A stretch of DNA of 56,303 nt, from assembly GCF_000338295.1 (NCBI RefSeq), contig NZ_ANMO01000102.1, positions 1 to 56,303 of the forward strand. The letters are read 5' to 3'. How positions within the stretch are numbered: the stretch's first letter is position 1; each line of letters opens with the position of its first letter. This DNA is from Rhodopirellula europaea 6C (lineage in GTDB: Bacteria > Planctomycetota > Planctomycetia > Pirellulales > Pirellulaceae). The notes under the pieces were generated by a model. The model worked only from the letters and a program-made list of their open reading frames with translations, was not told where the DNA came from and did not search any database. A program made the translations under genes and the position numbers. This document shows, in pieces, positions 36,289 to 46,804 of this stretch.

Positions 36289-37290
36289 ATGAAATCCGCG
36301 ACACCCGACGATCTTCCCCGAACCGGAGTGAAGCCTGATCTTTCCCGGTCAGCGTCTCAATGCTTTGAATCCTTGTGGAGCCGGGCGATTGAGTTGCGTT
36401 CTGTGCCGCTGACGATCGCTGGAGCACGTGTTTTGGACGCCGGTGTGACGTGCAGTGGATCTTTGGAAGCGGGGCTTGGGCTAGCCAGGCTTTGTTTGGG
36501 TGATTTGGCGAATGTCCGGTATGTGCCGGCGACTGCCGACGATTTGGTTGGCTTGTCAGTGGCGATCCAAACGGACCATCCGGTACTGTCCTGCCTGGGT
36601 GGCCAATACGCTGGTTGGCCGGTTTCGGTCGACGACTACTTCGCGATGGCGAGTGGGCCGATGCGGTGCTTGCGTGGTAAAGAAGCCATGCTGGAAGAAC
36701 TGCAGCTTTCACGTACGGCAAACGAAGGTGAATTCGCGGTTGGGGTTTTAGAGTCCGACAAATTGCCCGGCGATGACGTCATGGAAGCGATCGCGGACGA
36801 GTGTGGCGTCGACCCCAGTCGTCTGTGCTTGGCGGTTGCTCCGAGCACGAGCATTGCCGGCAGCGCCCAGGTGGTGTCGCGAAGCGTCGAGACCGCCCTG
36901 CACAAGTTGCACGCGTTGGAGTTCGACGTGACCCGTGTTGTGTCCGCTCATGGCGACGCACCACTGCCTCCTCCCGCGAAGAAAGGCGATACGATCGGTG
37001 GGATCGGGCGAACCAACGACGCGATGCTCTACGGTGCTCGGGTATCGCTTTGGGTCGATGCGGAGGACGACGCGATCGAAAGCGTTGCGGCAAAGGTACC
37101 GAGTGAATCCTCCGAGGATCACGGGCGACCCTTCGCGGAAATCTTCAAAGAGTACGAATACGATTTCTATCGAGTCGACCCAATGCTGTTCAGTCCCGCC
37201 GTTGTGACGATCCACTCGTTGCAATCGGGAAGAACGTGGCGTCATGGTCAGATCAGCCTCGACGTCATGCGAAAATCGTTCGGGCTATGA
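36289..37290 (+). CDS. mch: Methenyltetrahydromethanopterin cyclohydrolase
   Basis: Mch hydrolyses methenyl-tetrahydromethanopterin to formyl-H4MPT in the archaeal-type one-carbon pathway also found in methylotrophic bacteria and planctomycetes. The 333-residue product has the family signature GARVLDAGVTCSGSLEAGLGLA, HPVLSCLGGQYAGWPVS, MASGPMRCL, VAPSTSIAGSAQVVSRSVETALHKL, and HGDAPLPPPAKKGDTIGGIGRTNDAMLYGA. All segments expected for Mch are present and full length. The stop overlaps the start of an ATP-grasp gene (ATGA), forming a coupled operon. In planctomycetes these genes are thought to serve formaldehyde oxidation or detoxification. Confidence 0.95.
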   Translation: MKSATPDDLPRTGVKPDLSRSASQCFESLWSRAIELRSVPLTIAGARVLDAGVTCSGSLEAGLGLARLCLGDLANVRYVPATADDLVGLSVAIQTDHPVLSCLGGQYAGWPVSVDDYFAMASGPMRCLRGKEAMLEELQLSRTANEGEFAVGVLESDKLPGDDVMEAIADECGVDPSRLCLAVAPSTSIAGSAQVVSRSVETALHKLHALEFDVTRVVSAHGDAPLPPPAKKGDTIGGIGRTNDAMLYGARVSLWVDAEDDAIESVAAKVPSESSEDHGRPFAEIFKEYEYDFYRVDPMLFSPAVVTIHSLQSGRTWRHGQISLDVMRKSFGL

Positions 37291-38294
37291 GTCGCGAAAG
37301 TGTGTTGGTGCTGGGCGGGCGAGATGCGTTGGTTGGGGCATCTCGTTCACAACCGCTCGGCCGAGCCGCGACGTTGGGATGGCATTTGTCCGAGCTGCAA
37401 GCCGCGGCTTCGCGTCGGTCGGTTCAACTTCACTTCGCCGACTACGAATCGTTGCGAAGTCAAATCGGTCGCAAGGCAGATTTGGAATCGCTGCATTCTG
37501 ATTCGCTGCATTCGACAGTGTGGTGCCAACGGCACGATGGATCGGATTCGAGTGAGCGATCTTTGGATGACTTCGGTGCCATTCTGACTCGCACCATGCC
37601 GGCTGGATCATTGGAACAGATCACGTTTCGGTTGGCGGTGTTGCATGATTTCGTCCGACGGCAGAGCCGGTTGAGAACGACTGCGATCGTCAATCCTCCG
37701 GCCGCGTTGGAGCTTGCCATCGACAAGTTCGCAACCTTGGCTCGCGTGAAGTCGCTCGGTATTTCGACACCCGCAACGCATGTCGTGCAATCCCGAGTTG
37801 CGGCGATGCAGGCTTTTGAAGAGTTGGGCGGTGACGTTGTGGTCAAACCAATCTTTGGCGGCGAAGGTCGCGGTGTCATGCGAGTTTGCGACACGGAACT
37901 TGCCTGGACCACGTTCTCGACTCTCACGCAAATGAACGCGGTTTGTTACGTTCAGCAGTTCGTGCCTCCCGGCGGGGTCGACTTGCGAATGCTCATTGTT
38001 GGCGAGCACGCTCATGCGATCCGTCGTCGCAGCAATTCCGACTTCCGTACCAATGTTCGAGGCGGCGGTCAAAGCGAGCTGGTTCCAATGCAGGCATGTT
38101 TGGAACAATCGGCTCGGCTTGTTTGCGAGGACTTTGGATTGAAGCTCGCCGCGGTCGATTGGTTGGAGACAGACTCGGGTGAATTGCAATTGATTGAGGT
38201 CAACGGAATTCCCGGTTGGAAGGGAGCCCAGCGAGTCGTGCAAGAATCGATCGCGGATCAAATTCTCGAAGTTTTGGTGAGTGAAAATGAGTGA
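37287..38294 (+). CDS. RimK-like ATP-grasp ligase (OrfY-like, C1/H4MPT-associated)
   Basis: This 335-residue ATP-grasp enzyme begins at the ATG at 37287, overlapping the mch stop by four bases. It has an N-terminal pre-ATP-grasp part, then VKPIFGGEGRGVMRV (ATP-binding loop), YVQQFVPPGGVDLRMLIVG and LQLIEVNGIPGWKGAQ (metal-binding Glu/Asn). This is the RimK family, which attaches amino acids such as glutamate. Genes of this kind (orfY) sit next to mch in the C1 clusters of methylotrophic bacteria and are thought to help make the H4MPT-type cofactor. Function as a cofactor ligase is inferred from this context. Confidence 0.85.
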   Translation: MSRESVLVLGGRDALVGASRSQPLGRAATLGWHLSELQAAASRRSVQLHFADYESLRSQIGRKADLESLHSDSLHSTVWCQRHDGSDSSERSLDDFGAILTRTMPAGSLEQITFRLAVLHDFVRRQSRLRTTAIVNPPAALELAIDKFATLARVKSLGISTPATHVVQSRVAAMQAFEELGGDVVVKPIFGGEGRGVMRVCDTELAWTTFSTLTQMNAVCYVQQFVPPGGVDLRMLIVGEHAHAIRRRSNSDFRTNVRGGGQSELVPMQACLEQSARLVCEDFGLKLAAVDWLETDSGELQLIEVNGIPGWKGAQRVVQESIADQILEVLVSENE

Positions 38295-40032
38295 TGGTCC
38301 ATGCGGTCGAGAGTCGTCTCAGGTCCTCGCCGAAACCGCGGGCTCATCCGGCAACGTTGCGTCGCGACTGACCGCAATCGCGAAAATATTGCCTGGTGCG
38401 ATCGCCATCGCGGAACCCTCTGGACCCGCCAAGCGGGATGGATCGGATCGTGACTACGCGCTGACAACGTTCAAGACGTTGGACGAACGAAGCACTCAGA
38501 CCGCTCGAGGATTGTTGGCCTCGGGAATCGAACCTGGCATGCGTATGGTCAGCTTGGTTCCCTTTGGAGCCCAGTTCATCGAGCTCGTTTTCGCGATGAT
38601 GAAGGCCGGCGTCGTGGTCGTGCTGATTGATCCCGGGATGGACCGAAAACACCTGATCGGATGTTTGCAGGAAGTGAACCCGGATGGCTTTTTGGGGATC
38701 CCAAAAGCACAGGCAATCAGAACGATTCTGCGAAGCAAATTTCCCAATGCGAAACGCAACATCACGGTGGGGCGGCGTTGGTTCTGGGGTGGCAAAACGC
38801 TCAAGCAGATTTTGGAGCTGGGTAACCAAAATCCCTCGCTGTCACTTCCCGATGTTCAGACGCTCGACGATGCGGCGGTGATCTTCACAACAGGCAGTAC
38901 CGGGCCGCCCAAAGGCGTCGCCTACACGCATCAAACCTTTCATGCCCAGATCGATCGAATTCGCAGCCGCTACGAGATTCGCCAAGGCTCACGCGATTTG
39001 GCGTGCTTTCCCTTGTTTGGTTTGTTCGATGCGGTGATGGGAGTGACGACGGTCATTCCTGACATGGATCCCACACGACCCGCTGATGTGGATCCGCAGA
39101 AGTTGATTCAGGCGGCGCGACAATGGGAAGTGGATCAATCGTTCGGTTCACCTGCACTTTGGAAAACGGTCACACGGTGGTGCGAAGCGAACGCGGTCGG
39201 ACGACCATTTCCAACTTTGAAACGCGTTCTGTCGGCAGGGGCACCCGTTCCAGCGGCGACGCTGCAATCGCTTCGACGATTCGTTCACGAAGACGCCAAA
39301 ATCGAGACGCCGTACGGAGCGACCGAGGCGCTACCAATCGCTTCCATCGAATCGCGAGCTGTCATCTCGGAAACCGGTCCAGCAGCATCGAAAGGCAAAG
39401 GTGTTTGTGTTGGTTCTCGGTTTGACGGTGTGCAGTGGAAAGTGATCGAAATCGATGATGGTCCAATCGCAAACATCGATGAAACCAAAGAGTTGCCACG
39501 GGGCAAGATCGGTGAGTTGATCGTGAGTGGGCCGATGGTGACTCGGCGATATGTCACGCGAGCGGACCAAAACGCTCTGCACAAAGTGCATGATGAGTCA
39601 GGCGATACTGCCGAACAGTTTTGGCATCGGATGGGTGATGTTGGTTACCTCGACGATCAAGATCGTTTTTGGTTTTGCGGTCGAAAAGCACATCGGATCG
39701 TATCGGCCAAGCGTACGTTTTTCACGATTCCATGTGAGTCGGTTTTCAACGTGGATGAACAAGTCGATAAATGCGCATTGGTCGGCGTTGGAAAGCCGGG
39801 TGAGCAGACGCCGGTGTTGGTCGTTCAGCCCATCGACCTGACCATCGGTGGCGATACCAGTCGAGCGAAGGAATTGGAGGCGAGGCTTCGCGATCGAGCA
39901 GCTCGTAATCCGCTGACGCAGCGGATCGATCGTTTTGTCATTCGTGATCAACCGCTACCGGTCGACATCCGGCACAACAGCAAGATTTTCCGCGAAAAGT
40001 TGGCTGCGGAATTGAATGGCGACATCCAGTGA
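38287..40032 (+). CDS. OleC-like adenylating enzyme (AMP-dependent synthetase family)
   Basis: This 581-residue ANL-superfamily enzyme starts at the ATG at 38287, overlapping the ATP-grasp stop by eight bases. The core motifs are IFTTGSTGPPKGVAYTH (P-loop), KIETPYGATEALP (A5), HRMGDVGYLDDQDRFWFCGR (A7/A8), and VDIRHNSKIFREKLAAEL with the catalytic C-terminal Lys. The pattern, especially YGATEALP and IRHNSKIFREKL, resembles OleC, the beta-lactone synthetase that closes beta-hydroxy acids in long-chain olefin synthesis. No oleA, oleB or oleD is nearby. It may act on a different substrate in this C1 operon. Confidence 0.8.
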   Translation: MSDGPCGRESSQVLAETAGSSGNVASRLTAIAKILPGAIAIAEPSGPAKRDGSDRDYALTTFKTLDERSTQTARGLLASGIEPGMRMVSLVPFGAQFIELVFAMMKAGVVVVLIDPGMDRKHLIGCLQEVNPDGFLGIPKAQAIRTILRSKFPNAKRNITVGRRWFWGGKTLKQILELGNQNPSLSLPDVQTLDDAAVIFTTGSTGPPKGVAYTHQTFHAQIDRIRSRYEIRQGSRDLACFPLFGLFDAVMGVTTVIPDMDPTRPADVDPQKLIQAARQWEVDQSFGSPALWKTVTRWCEANAVGRPFPTLKRVLSAGAPVPAATLQSLRRFVHEDAKIETPYGATEALPIASIESRAVISETGPAASKGKGVCVGSRFDGVQWKVIEIDDGPIANIDETKELPRGKIGELIVSGPMVTRRYVTRADQNALHKVHDESGDTAEQFWHRMGDVGYLDDQDRFWFCGRKAHRIVSAKRTFFTIPCESVFNVDEQVDKCALVGVGKPGEQTPVLVVQPIDLTIGGDTSRAKELEARLRDRAARNPLTQRIDRFVIRDQPLPVDIRHNSKIFREKLAAELNGDIQ

Positions 40033-40059: not shown

Positions 40060-41520
40060 TTAGCTTTCCGTCGGTCGAATCGCACGCAATAGACCAGCAG
40101 CTTTGGTCCATGTTTCTTCGAGTTCGCTTTGCGGTTCGCTGCGAGCGGTGACGCCTCCGCCGACGGGAAAGTGCCAGTGGCCGTCTCGCTGGGTGACGGT
40201 TCGAATCAAGATGTTGAAATCCGCGTTGCCGGAAACGCTGATGTACCCGATCGATCCGCAGTAGGCTCCGCGTGGTTGCCCTTCGAGTCGGGCGATGGTT
40301 TTCATCGCTTCGATTTTGGGAGCACCAGTGATGCTTCCACCGGGGAAACAAGCTGCCAACAGCTCGCTGATTGTGACGTCGTCACGCAAGTCGCCTTGGA
40401 CGGTCGACACTAGGTGTTGAACACTTTGGTAGCGTTCAATTTCGCAAAGTCCGGAGACGCGAACGCTATCGTCTTTGCAGGCGATGGAAAGATCGTTTCG
40501 CATCAGATCCACGATCATGATGTTCTCGGCTCGGTCCTTGGCACTGCCGCCGAGAACCTGAGCCAAGCGTTCGTCTTCGATCTCATCTCCGGTGCGCGGC
40601 ACGGTTCCTTTGATTGGGCGAGTGACAACGTGGCGATCACGCACCTGCAGAAAACCTTCCGGTGAGGAGCTCAGGATTTGCTCGTTGCCGACATCAAAGA
40701 AGGCTGAATAAGGTGCCGGGTTTGATCGGCGCAAACGACCGTAGAGTTCTTCGGCGTCGCAAGTCGCGGGATGCGAAAGCGTCTGAGCAAGATTGACTTG
40801 GAATGAGTCACCCGCACGGATTCGGTCGATGATCTCGGCGACCGCCTCGACGTAGCGTTGCGAGTCGATGTTGCTTCGGACACCAGACTCTTTGGTCGGA
40901 TGGCCTGTTGATTCTGAGTTTTGGTTCGGTGGCGGTGAGCTGGCAACAGAATGTTCGGTCGTCGAGTTCAAGCGTTCCAGCGCTTCTTCACCACGGCGGC
41001 GAGCTCTTTCAGGATCTGCCTTCAGCGAGCCATCCAGGCCGTTGCTGATCAAGGTTGCTTCGCCGGAGGAATGGTCCACCGCGATGGTCCAGTCGTAGAT
41101 TCCGATCGCCATTCCAAGTTGAGGTCGACCGCCTAAGAAGCTCTCAGGCATTCGGGTCGTTGGTTCCAACCACCAGGCCGCTTCGTACGGAATCAGCCCC
41201 GCCAGCCCGCCGCAAAAGGGAGGCAGTTCGGGAGAGTGGCCGAAGTCCGCGATTCGAGAACACCAATTGTGGAGTTTGGGCCACGGATCGGGATCTGTGA
41301 GGGAGGCATTGAGCCAGCCGACCGGGTCCGCTGCCAGGAACGAGTATCGTCCTCGGTCGTGCTCGTGGTCGGACGCTGAGTCGAACCAGAGCCGATGTTT
41401 CGTTCCCGCGAGCCTTCCGAACAGGTCTTCCAGGTCACTGACCCGGCCGAGCGAATGCGTCCACAGAGCGATCTTTTGTTTGTTGATAGCGGAGTGGGCT
41501 TTCTTGGCAGTCTGCTGCAT
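40060..41520 (-). CDS. pabB: Aminodeoxychorismate synthase component I
   Basis: PabB converts chorismate and ammonia to 4-amino-4-deoxychorismate, the precursor of p-aminobenzoate for folate and methanopterin-type cofactors. The 486-residue protein has the chorismate-binding C-terminal domain: VEAVAEIIDRIRAGDSFQVNLAQ, AFFDVGNEQILSSSPEGFL, TRPIKGTVPR (PIKGT is the PabB form; anthranilate synthases carry PIAGT), MIVDLMRNDLS, FPGGSITGAPK and AYCGSIGY. The ATG at 41520 is used because the longer frame to 41613 would run into the clpC terminator. It converges with the mch operon with 27 bases between the ends. A glutaminase subunit (pabA) is not in the window. Confidence 0.92.
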   Translation of the reverse strand: MQQTAKKAHSAINKQKIALWTHSLGRVSDLEDLFGRLAGTKHRLWFDSASDHEHDRGRYSFLAADPVGWLNASLTDPDPWPKLHNWCSRIADFGHSPELPPFCGGLAGLIPYEAAWWLEPTTRMPESFLGGRPQLGMAIGIYDWTIAVDHSSGEATLISNGLDGSLKADPERARRRGEEALERLNSTTEHSVASSPPPNQNSESTGHPTKESGVRSNIDSQRYVEAVAEIIDRIRAGDSFQVNLAQTLSHPATCDAEELYGRLRRSNPAPYSAFFDVGNEQILSSSPEGFLQVRDRHVVTRPIKGTVPRTGDEIEDERLAQVLGGSAKDRAENIMIVDLMRNDLSIACKDDSVRVSGLCEIERYQSVQHLVSTVQGDLRDDVTISELLAACFPGGSITGAPKIEAMKTIARLEGQPRGAYCGSIGYISVSGNADFNILIRTVTQRDGHWHFPVGGGVTARSEPQSELEETWTKAAGLLRAIRPTES

Positions 41521-41572
41521 CGCGATCAATCGGGATCGAAAATTTGCCCGAGTGATATCGGGCCATTGGTGC

Positions 41573-41610
41573 AAAAAAAATGCCTCGGCGAGGGTTGGCT
41601 CGCCGAGGCA
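41573..41610 (-). terminator. Intrinsic terminator of clpC
   Basis: This is an 11-bp perfect stem (TGCCTCGGCGA/TCGCCGAGGCA) with an 8-base loop, followed on the minus strand by eight T. It lies 26 bases after the clpC stop and is the strongest rho-independent terminator in the window. It also rules out an upstream start for pabB. Confidence 0.95.
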
Positions 41611-41635
41611 CACTGATTGTCATTCGCGGAGCGAA

Positions 41636-44622: not shown

Positions 44623-45621
44623 GTGACGAGTTTGCTACCGATTGTGAATGAAGGTCTACCCACCGGATTGGTGCCGACATTCGCATCTCGGGTCGCAGGT
44701 GGGGCTCTCTGGCGCAACCAATTGAACCAGTTGCAGATCAACCTCGGCAAACTTTGCAATCAAACGTGCACCCACTGTCACGTGGACGCCGGTCCGACCA
44801 AGAAACGCGAAAACATGGACGACCGCACGGCGGATCGTTTGCTGGAGTTGGTGGAGGAGTGCTCGTCGATCACCACGGTTGATTTGACCGGCGGCGCACC
44901 GGAGATGAACCCGAATTTCCAACGGCTGGCCGCCGCGTTTCGAGCAGCGGGGCTGCGTGTAATCGACCGATGCAATCTCACAATTCTCAGCGAGCCCGGT
45001 TTTGATTGGGTGGCTGATTTTTTGGCCGAGCACGAAATCGATGTCGTGGCGTCACTGCCTTGTTACTTGGAAGACAATGTTGACGGGCAACGCGGCGGCG
45101 GCGTGTTTGGACGCAGCATCGATGGGCTGGTGAAATTGAATGAACTCGGGTATCGCCGCGGCAGTGACACGCATCGGCTGGATTTGGTCTACAACCCCAC
45201 CGGACCGTCGCTTCCGCCGGATCAAGCCAAATTAGAAGCCGACTATCGCCGCGAATTGGCCGCTCGGTACGGGATCGAGTTCGGCAGTTTGCTGACAATC
45301 ACCAACATTCCGATCCGTCGCTACGCCCAGTACCTTCAGAAACGTGGTTTGTTGGACGACTATCTGCGGTTGCTGTCGGATAACTTCAATCCAAATGCCA
45401 CGGATGAAGTGATGTGCCGATCGCTGGTGTCCGTCAGCTGGGATGGCCAAATTTTCGATTGTGATTTCAACCAGATGATTGGTTTGTCTCAGAAACCTCG
45501 CACGGTTTGGTCCATCGAATCACTGGACGAGCTGGTCGACCAACCGATCGCTTTGGCCGATCACTGCTATGGATGCACCGCCGGTGCCGGCAGTGGTTGT
45601 GGCGGCGCACTGCTCCACTGA
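44623..45621 (+). CDS. arsS: Radical SAM protein of the arsenosugar (ArsS) type
   Basis: ArsS-type radical SAM enzymes add a ribosyl-derived group to dimethylarsenic in arsenosugar synthesis. The 332-residue protein has NLGKLCNQTCTHCHVDAG, the CxxxCxxC site for the 4Fe-4S cluster (three cysteines near residues 46-53), VDLTGGAPEMNPNF, VIDRCNLTILSEPGFDWV, LPCYLEDNVDGQRGGGVFGRSI, and a Cys-rich C terminus CYGCTAGAGSGCGG (likely second cluster site). The start is a GTG with GGAG nine bases upstream. A methyltransferase of the ArsM type follows after 85 bases. Identification is from motifs and context; the exact reaction here is inferred. Confidence 0.85.
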   Translation: MTSLLPIVNEGLPTGLVPTFASRVAGGALWRNQLNQLQINLGKLCNQTCTHCHVDAGPTKKRENMDDRTADRLLELVEECSSITTVDLTGGAPEMNPNFQRLAAAFRAAGLRVIDRCNLTILSEPGFDWVADFLAEHEIDVVASLPCYLEDNVDGQRGGGVFGRSIDGLVKLNELGYRRGSDTHRLDLVYNPTGPSLPPDQAKLEADYRRELAARYGIEFGSLLTITNIPIRRYAQYLQKRGLLDDYLRLLSDNFNPNATDEVMCRSLVSVSWDGQIFDCDFNQMIGLSQKPRTVWSIESLDELVDQPIALADHCYGCTAGAGSGCGGALLH

Positions 45622-45706
45622 TAGCAACCCCCTTTTCTACCAATACAGTTTTCGCCTGATCCGTTTGTCTTTCCCCGCAGTACACCGCACCCTGAAGTAA
45701 CCCGCA

Positions 45707-46804
45707 ATGTCGTCAATGAATGTGGAAGCCGCTGTCCGTGAACGCTATGCCCAAGCAGCCCATGAGCGCGAGGCCGAACTTTGTTGCCCGGTCGACTACG
45801 ACGCGAAGTACCTGAAAGTCATTCCGCAAGAAGTCATCGATCGCGACTACGGTTGCGGTGACCCATCAAAGTACGTTCGTCCCGGTGAGACGGTCTTGGA
45901 TCTTGGCAGCGGCGGCGGAAAGATTTGTTTCATCGCCTCGCAAGTGGTGGGCGAGCACGGTCATGTGATCGGTGTCGACATGAACGATGACATGCTCACG
46001 CTGGCTCGCGATTCGCAACCCAAGGTTGCCGAAGCGATCGGTTACGACAACATCACGTTTCGCAAAGGCAAAATCCAAGATCTCGCGATCGATCGAGATG
46101 AAGTCCAGGACTACCTGAAGCAACATCCGGTGACCGACGATGCTGGCCTGCGTGCACTGGAGGCGTACCTTGCCGAGCAGCGTCGCGAGTCGCCCATGAT
46201 TGATGACGAAACGATCGATGTCGTGGTCAGCAACTGCGTGTTGAACTTGGTCGACGCCGATGAAAAGGAGTTGTTGTTCGACGAGATCTTTCGCGTTCTG
46301 CGACCTGGCGGGCGAGCGGTGATCAGTGACATCGTTTGCGACGAAGAGGTTCCCGAGGCGATGCAAGCGGATCCGGAATTGTGGAGCGGCTGCATCTCGG
46401 GTGCATACAAGTTGTCAGCGTTCTTGGAAGCGTTCGAAAACGCGGGCTTCGAAGACATACAAATTGCGGTCCTGCAAACTGAACCGTGGCGAGTCGTCGA
46501 AGGCATCGCGTTTCGATCGATGACCGTGATCGCAACTCGCCCCGATGAGGATGCTCTTCAGTCCGGCGATGTTTCGGCGAGTGGATACCAACGGGTTTAT
46601 CGTGGTCCGTTCAAGTACGTGTGTGATGACGCCGGTCGAATGTACACGCGCGGTGAGGTATGCACCGATGAACTCGCCGAAGCGGCGTCGCGGGAAACCA
46701 TCGCCGATCAATTCGCGGTCTACACCAGCGACTCAAACGCAAAGCCCAAAAGCTTCTCCCTGCCAACCGCAACCGACTGCTGTTCCGGCGACAGTTGCTG
46801 TTGA
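45707..46804 (+). CDS. arsM: Arsenite S-adenosylmethionine methyltransferase, ArsM-like
   Basis: ArsM methylates trivalent arsenic with SAM, giving methylated arsenic for excretion or arsenosugar synthesis. The 365-residue protein has the SAM site VLDLGSGGGKICFIA and, in the expected relative order, the cysteines of the arsenic site (about C50 in YGCGDP, C177 in VVSNCVLNLV and C229 in LWSGCISGAY). An extra Cys pair at 26-27 and a C-terminal CCSGDSCC tail could also bind thiophilic metal. It follows the ArsS-like gene by 85 bases on the same strand. An alternative is a general methyltransferase, but the cysteine positions argue for arsenic. Confidence 0.85.
   Translation: MSSMNVEAAVRERYAQAAHEREAELCCPVDYDAKYLKVIPQEVIDRDYGCGDPSKYVRPGETVLDLGSGGGKICFIASQVVGEHGHVIGVDMNDDMLTLARDSQPKVAEAIGYDNITFRKGKIQDLAIDRDEVQDYLKQHPVTDDAGLRALEAYLAEQRRESPMIDDETIDVVVSNCVLNLVDADEKELLFDEIFRVLRPGGRAVISDIVCDEEVPEAMQADPELWSGCISGAYKLSAFLEAFENAGFEDIQIAVLQTEPWRVVEGIAFRSMTVIATRPDEDALQSGDVSASGYQRVYRGPFKYVCDDAGRMYTRGEVCTDELAEAASRETIADQFAVYTSDSNAKPKSFSLPTATDCCSGDSCC

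Follow-up and report, generated by a model that had tools for sequence, protein, structure and literature searches.

The 56,303-nucleotide stretch analysed here (the window; positions 1-56,303 of the forward strand of contig NZ_ANMO01000102.1, assembly GCF_000338295.1, from Rhodopirellula europaea 6C, genome G000 in our numbering, in which G, L and C denote genomes, loci and contigs) carries an oleC gene as the third member of an operon that begins with mch and a second gene, most likely myfB, of one-carbon metabolism. Analysis of this gene and its relatives indicated that it very likely encodes a genuine OleC, predicted from its sequence to act in a head-to-head olefin pathway whose genes are scattered over the genome, and that it was probably tied to the one-carbon genes by an ancestral operon fusion. 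We favour this reading because the gene is the sole close OleC match in the genome, because the same genome holds single homologues of OleA, OleB and OleD, and because OleC and OleA occur together across the phylum.

The operon consists of mch, encoding methenyl-tetrahydromethanopterin (H4MPT) cyclohydrolase (36289..37290, plus strand; TIGR03120, 436 bits against a cut-off of 228.8; PF02289, 356 bits); a gene for a RimK/MptN-type ATP-grasp ligase, most likely orf5/myfB from its place after mch (37287..38294, plus strand; RimK PF08443, 69 bits); and oleC, encoding the predicted beta-lactone synthetase of the olefin pathway (38287..40032, plus strand). The first two genes share an ATGA start-stop overlap (37287..37290, plus strand) and the last two an 8-base start-stop overlap (38287..38294, plus strand), with the ligase starting at the ATG at 37287 and oleC at the ATG at 38287; a GTG at 38281 is an alternative possible start for oleC. 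As the last gene of the operon oleC is probably translationally coupled to the ligase gene, and the three genes would be expressed together. A promoter scan returned 0 matches, with 1.4 expected by chance. No oleA, oleB or oleD was present among the six window genes in or next to the operon that were scanned for families. The first-pass annotation of this DNA had described the same two overlaps, a third gene resembling OleC and the lack of ole partners nearby, all of which our analysis confirmed.

The OleC protein scored 681 bits against PRK09274/NF006754, over the cut-off of 478, and no other protein of the genome comes near it as an OleC match, the next best reaching 42 bits. Its ANL adenylation motifs (TTGSTGPPKG, YGATEA, GDVGYLD and RHNSKIFREKL) agree with those of OleC proteins encoded in ole clusters, and of the 170 columns without variation among six such clustered proteins it keeps 128. 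With 90% of rows as the lower bound, 107 of these columns are conserved among 49 OleC rows linked to mch, and 114 among 13 unlinked ones.

In the olefin pathway OleA is the condensing thiolase, OleD the reductase, OleC the ATP-dependent enzyme of beta-lactone closure and OleB the beta-lactone decarboxylase, and a homologue of each partner was found once in the R. europaea genome. The OleA-type gene (C21:3535-4572) scored 466 bits against PRK09258 (cut-off 285); the best solved-structure matches of its product are the 3row group, and the positions of the Cys, His and Asn conserved in that group align. We take PDB 3row and its kin, labelled 3-oxoacyl-[ACP] synthase III (ACP, acyl carrier protein) in the database, to be OleA of Xanthomonas campestris, and the choice of catalytic residues is likewise our assumption. 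The OleD-type gene (C193:14443-15417) scored 372 bits, with the next protein in the genome at 133, and the OleB-type gene (C173:36220-37083) scored 274 bits against a profile of six OleB proteins from the clusters of other planctomycetes, keeping 56 of 80 invariant columns and the HDWGG nucleophile motif. OleD and OleB were assigned by best, well-separated scores rather than by curated cut-offs. We propose that OleA, OleD, OleC and OleB, encoded at four separate genomic places, would together form the olefin pathway.

The three partner genes lie on contigs other than that of oleC, so that the R. europaea genes are not clustered. In a near relative with a one-contig genome and an OleC that is 97% identical (G130), oleD, oleC, oleB and oleA lie at 0.52, 3.59, 5.54 and 6.91 Mb, respectively; because the four genes are megabases apart there, neither assembly nor contamination accounts for the scattering. 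Each of the 13 members of the genus that were searched contained a single OleA above the cut-off, at 422-477 bits with no other protein beyond 128, and a single OleD-like protein, at 364-382 bits with no other beyond 154. Other candidate partners in R. europaea were rejected: at C202, a 3-ketoacyl synthase III (KAS III) gene considered as oleA is FabH-like (407 bits) and the adjacent gene, considered as oleD, is GalE (443 bits), and the KAS III genes at C236 and C154 are FabH-like and, under the cut-off, DpgA-like. Directly beside oleD lies a gene for an MFS transporter, both in R. europaea (L047 10415-12037, on C193) and in G130 (L048 8004-9506), which is Tet(A/B/C)-like at 307 and 305 bits (cut-off of 475 not reached).

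Comparison of 149 genomes of the phylum showed that OleC occurs together with OleA: both were found in 51 genomes, OleC alone in 4, OleA alone in 2 and neither in 92, although these genomes share kinship and a Fisher test on all 149 overstates their independence. In the same set OleC and mch were both present in 11 genomes, OleC without mch in 44, mch without OleC in 3 and neither in 91. Outside the family of the window (f1) and a second family (f2), 43 genomes have both oleA and oleC, and in 31 of these the two genes share a strand and are no more than 2.5 kb apart. The OleB profile matched strongly (261-539 bits) in all 77 OleA-bearing genomes searched, which include the six genomes that supplied the profile, with a second, weaker match (113-156 bits) in three of them, and found nothing in two searched genomes without OleA and OleC.

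The arrangement of the window recurs widely. The same three genes stand in the same order in Neorhodopirellula pilleata, Rhodopirellula solitaria and R. baltica, and the survey was extended to 199 genomes of the window's family, which we infer to be Pirellulaceae because named loci are placed within it in the OleC tree. OleC-type proteins were over the cut-off in 184 of these genomes, Mch in 185 and OleA in 188. Linkage was scored in the 121 genomes for which the places of mch and OleC were both among the matches listed (149 for each), with oleC counted as one gene downstream when 700-1500 bases on the same strand separated the model matches. By this measure the search for an ANL enzyme gene next to mch that the first-pass annotation had suggested found 90 of the 121 genomes with oleC one gene downstream; in the remainder the two were within 4 kb (5), otherwise placed on the same contig (4) or on another contig (22). 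One genome scored in the last class, G054, has the ligase gene and oleC side by side at the start of a contig, a break of the draft. Tight linkage was found in 25 of the 46 genera scored.

The junctions are short as well. In 49 of 50 loci (L025, whose contig begins in the ligase gene, was omitted), and with starts taken nearest the upstream stop, which favours overlaps, the ligase and oleC genes overlap or abut in 32 and are at most 100 bases apart in 45, and mch and the ligase gene overlap or abut in 22 and are at most 100 bases apart in 46. In 22 of the 32 overlapping or abutting ligase-oleC junctions the overlap of ATG and stop spans 4 or 8 bases. The recurring mch-myfB-oleC coupling is real and, with oleC one gene downstream in 90 of 121 genomes, beyond chance. 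Within 5 kb of 13 linked loci, some of whose stretches end sooner, no further true gene was common to more than three; reverse-frame open reading frames (ORFs) common to 12, 6, 6 and 3 of these loci were judged to be shadows of the three operon genes and were not counted. At three loci a DtxR/MntR-like metal-dependent regulator gene adjoins mch (L055 14666-15373 in G001, L023 10363-11025 in G018 and L024 12051-12782 in G061); the three copies clustered together, the L055 copy contains Pfam Fe_dep_repress and Fe_dep_repr_C, and inspection by eye showed ORFs with similar starts in L058 and L059.

The OleC tree, built quickly without bootstraps, with long outgroup branches and with 70 of 71 rows (one 30-residue row was dropped), placed the OleC proteins of the family in one clade (Shimodaira-Hasegawa-like approximate likelihood ratio test, SH-aLRT, 98), next to those of f2. 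Linked and unlinked family members are intermixed, with 10 label changes on the tree as built and 3 forced by well-supported branches, and the 26-row clade that holds the window is entirely linked. Four genomes have what look like intermediate states. In G001, mch, the ligase gene, oleC and oleA lie on one strand, with a small opposite-strand ORF between oleC and oleA; in G149 the order is mch, ligase, oleC, a zinc-ribbon protein, oleD and a fabF-like gene; and G054 repeats this order beginning with the ligase gene, another protein taking the zinc-ribbon position. In G018 one stretch contains ligase, oleC, oleD-like, fabF, two CrtI-like flavoprotein, FabZ-like, FabI-like and oleA genes, and a WD40 gene separates mch from the ligase gene. 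The G149 zinc-ribbon protein was considered as an OleB and rejected, its family match being limited to the ribbon.

We infer, as the simplest account, that mch-myfB was joined at its downstream end by an ole cluster, most of which was later dispersed. In an ancestor of the Pirellulaceae oleC, probably with other ole genes, would have been placed behind the older mch-myfB pair; in most lineages the other ole genes would later have moved off, leaving oleC third in the operon. The fabF-like gene and the genes for two CrtI/carotenoid-isomerase-like flavoproteins recur, in G018 together with FabZ-like and FabI-like genes, beside oleC and oleD (L057 6943-18617 in G018, L036 681-9597 in G149 and L025 1-9706 in G054), a module that looks like a fatty-acid or polyene supply for the olefin pathway.

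Several observations weigh against a genuine OleC with this history. The window protein reaches neither the 900-bit cut-off of the olefin beta-lactone synthetase model NF045786 nor the 850-bit one of NF045785, scoring 550 and 479 bits, and differs at 42 of the 170 columns invariant in clustered OleC. The R. europaea OleD-type protein misses the cut-offs of both OleD models (372 bits against 580), and its OleB-type protein, at 274 bits, is at the low end of the range over the 77 positive genomes. OleC was found in 11 of the 14 phylum genomes with mch and in 44 of the 135 others, a positive association that arises mainly through f1 and f2. Lastly, the mch-oleC linkage may have been gained repeatedly rather than once. 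On the first of these points, the clustered OleC of another planctomycete, G338, misses the same two models (662 and 671 bits), indicating that their cut-offs do not separate planctomycete OleC, and the clustered OleD of G338 is also under the OleD model cut-offs. The association of OleC with mch is far weaker than that with OleA.

A different question is whether selection has kept the operon together so that olefin synthesis is made in step with methylofuran supply or with one-carbon flux, as in a common formaldehyde or membrane response. The first-pass annotation had also offered a looser link of one-carbon flux to lipid or hydrocarbon formation, which may exist. The idea of a selected operon is compatible with a genuine OleC and adds a purpose to it, and the tight linkage in many genera, the close ligase-oleC junctions, the lack of any further widely shared gene around the operon and the separation of oleA, oleB and oleD from it in the window's genus all accord with it. 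We nevertheless consider it unlikely, since close linkage is missing in 26 of the 121 scored genomes (22 with the genes on different contigs, some through contig breaks), the 13 neighbourhood loci were chosen for being linked, and overlap alone slows re-arrangement. In addition, none of the nine genomes outside the family with both mch and OleC showed linkage (four with the genes far apart on one contig, five on different contigs), and many genomes retain OleC while having no mch. More specifically, the hydrocarbon synthesis of the family could be wired translationally to the methylofuran/H4MPT formaldehyde pathway, such that the mch-myfB message would set OleC output and one-carbon load or methylofuran supply would gate membrane olefins, a proposal that we make tentatively and with low expectation.

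The pathway might instead end in a beta-lactone or other oxidised product, with the OleB-like protein serving otherwise. According to PMC7064751, oleACD clusters without oleB make beta-lactones, and the OleB-like proteins of f1 and f2 score under most clustered OleB and are not encoded beside oleC in the loci read. Such an end product appears improbable given that an OleB-like protein accompanied OleA in every OleA-bearing genome searched, was missing from both searched genomes without OleA and OleC, and keeps the HDWGG nucleophile motif in R. europaea.

The first-pass annotation had proposed that the OleC-like enzyme adenylates a carboxyl group needed for the cofactor, and had named oleA, oleB and oleD elsewhere with this gene as the sole oleC as part of what would speak against that role; this genomic half is what the R. 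europaea genome contains. Recruitment to cofactor synthesis, with the enzyme adenylating the carboxyl of a methylofuran or H4MPT precursor, would fit the conserved linkage and an operon shared with mch and the gene of a methylofuran ligase, but it is highly improbable, as it would deprive a genome that retains OleA, OleB and OleD homologues of its OleC, 44 of the 55 OleC-bearing phylum genomes are without mch, the mch-linked OleC proteins form no separate clade, and two family genomes, G030 and G067, keep OleC and OleA with neither mch nor fhcD found (these are draft genomes of 96 and 95% completeness, and G100, a genome with mch, likewise gave no fhcD). The drafts G002 and G145, which belong to one genus and yielded no mch and no OleC over the cut-off, were considered as a natural co-loss test and left out of the evidence, an assembly gap being as likely; fhcD and OleA are kept in both and OleB in G002.

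The middle gene of the operon was called orfY in the first-pass annotation, and sequence comparison suggests another name. Its best NCBIfam model is MptN_Meth (154 bits; cut-off of 350 not reached). On two proteobacterial plasmids mch is followed by a RimK-family ligase gene and then a CitG-like gene; the window ligase is 28.5 and 27.5% identical to these ligases (E 6e-34 and 7e-27), and it has no meaningful match to the other plasmid ATP-grasp gene, located before mch (E 0.48 and 8.4), which we take to be orfY (MyfA). The position after mch is also that of orf5 in Methylosinus trichosporium, where the order is mch-orf5-orf7-fae-fae-orf17 and where orfY was not found, according to PMC3615186. 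In PMC8141765, Orf5 is MyfB, which is 33% identical to MptN, is required for the polyglutamate chain of methylofuran and was shown in Methylorubrum to add glutamate to methylofuran. From the plasmid similarity, the position and this literature, the middle gene is most likely better named orf5/myfB, for a methylofuran polyglutamate ligase, and the cofactor concerned would be methylofuran. Of the earlier assignment of both genes to the methanopterin-type pathway, the part concerning Mch stands, while the ligase fits methylofuran synthesis, as described in PMC8141765, rather than a role in H4MPT.

Beyond the operon, a gene for a PabB/TrpE-type chorismate-binding enzyme adjoins oleC on the minus strand (40060-41613; PF00425, 298 bits, under all NCBIfam cut-offs shown). 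Para-aminobenzoate feeds pterin cofactors, and this gene was considered as a member of the system and rejected, being beside the operon only in G000, G130 and G174 among the loci read. Further on, at 44623-46804 on the plus strand, is an arsenosugar pair consisting of genes for an ArsS radical S-adenosylmethionine protein (TIGR04167, 419 bits; cut-off 300) and an ArsM-like methyltransferase (NF040538, 358 bits, under the cut-off of 500).

That planctomycetes carry ole genes is already in print, in PMC7158056 and PMC10176705, so that the novelty here is the arrangement; as the first-pass annotation had supposed, no mch-oleC link was found in print among the open-literature matches listed. With an olefin pathway that looks complete but scattered, searches based on clustering would miss the pathway or misread OleC as a cofactor enzyme. 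The recurring mch-myfB-oleC operon hints concretely that membrane hydrocarbons may be connected with formaldehyde metabolism, and the corrected identity of the middle gene points to methylofuran.

In sequence family, in adenylation motifs and in having OleA, OleB and OleD homologues in the same genome, the R. europaea protein resembles the OleC of the OleABCD olefin pathway, whose gene is usually, though not by definition, clustered with its partners, whereas the R. europaea gene is unclustered and third behind mch and the methylofuran ligase gene. The oleA-oleB-oleC-oleD clusters of other planctomycetes, such as locus L062 of G338, encode a homologous OleC, and their other three proteins are homologous to those of R. 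europaea; in G338, however, they form a single cluster without mch, in contrast to the scattered genes of R. europaea. The proteobacterial mch-orf5-orf7 clusters of H4MPT/methylofuran metabolism, including that described in PMC3615186, likewise have mch directly followed by a RimK/MptN-type ligase gene, but their third gene, in the orf7 position, is CitG-like (annotated as triphosphoribosyl-dephospho-CoA synthase), and in R. europaea it is oleC. The mch-myfB pair is found across phyla, and oleC in the third place is the peculiarity here.

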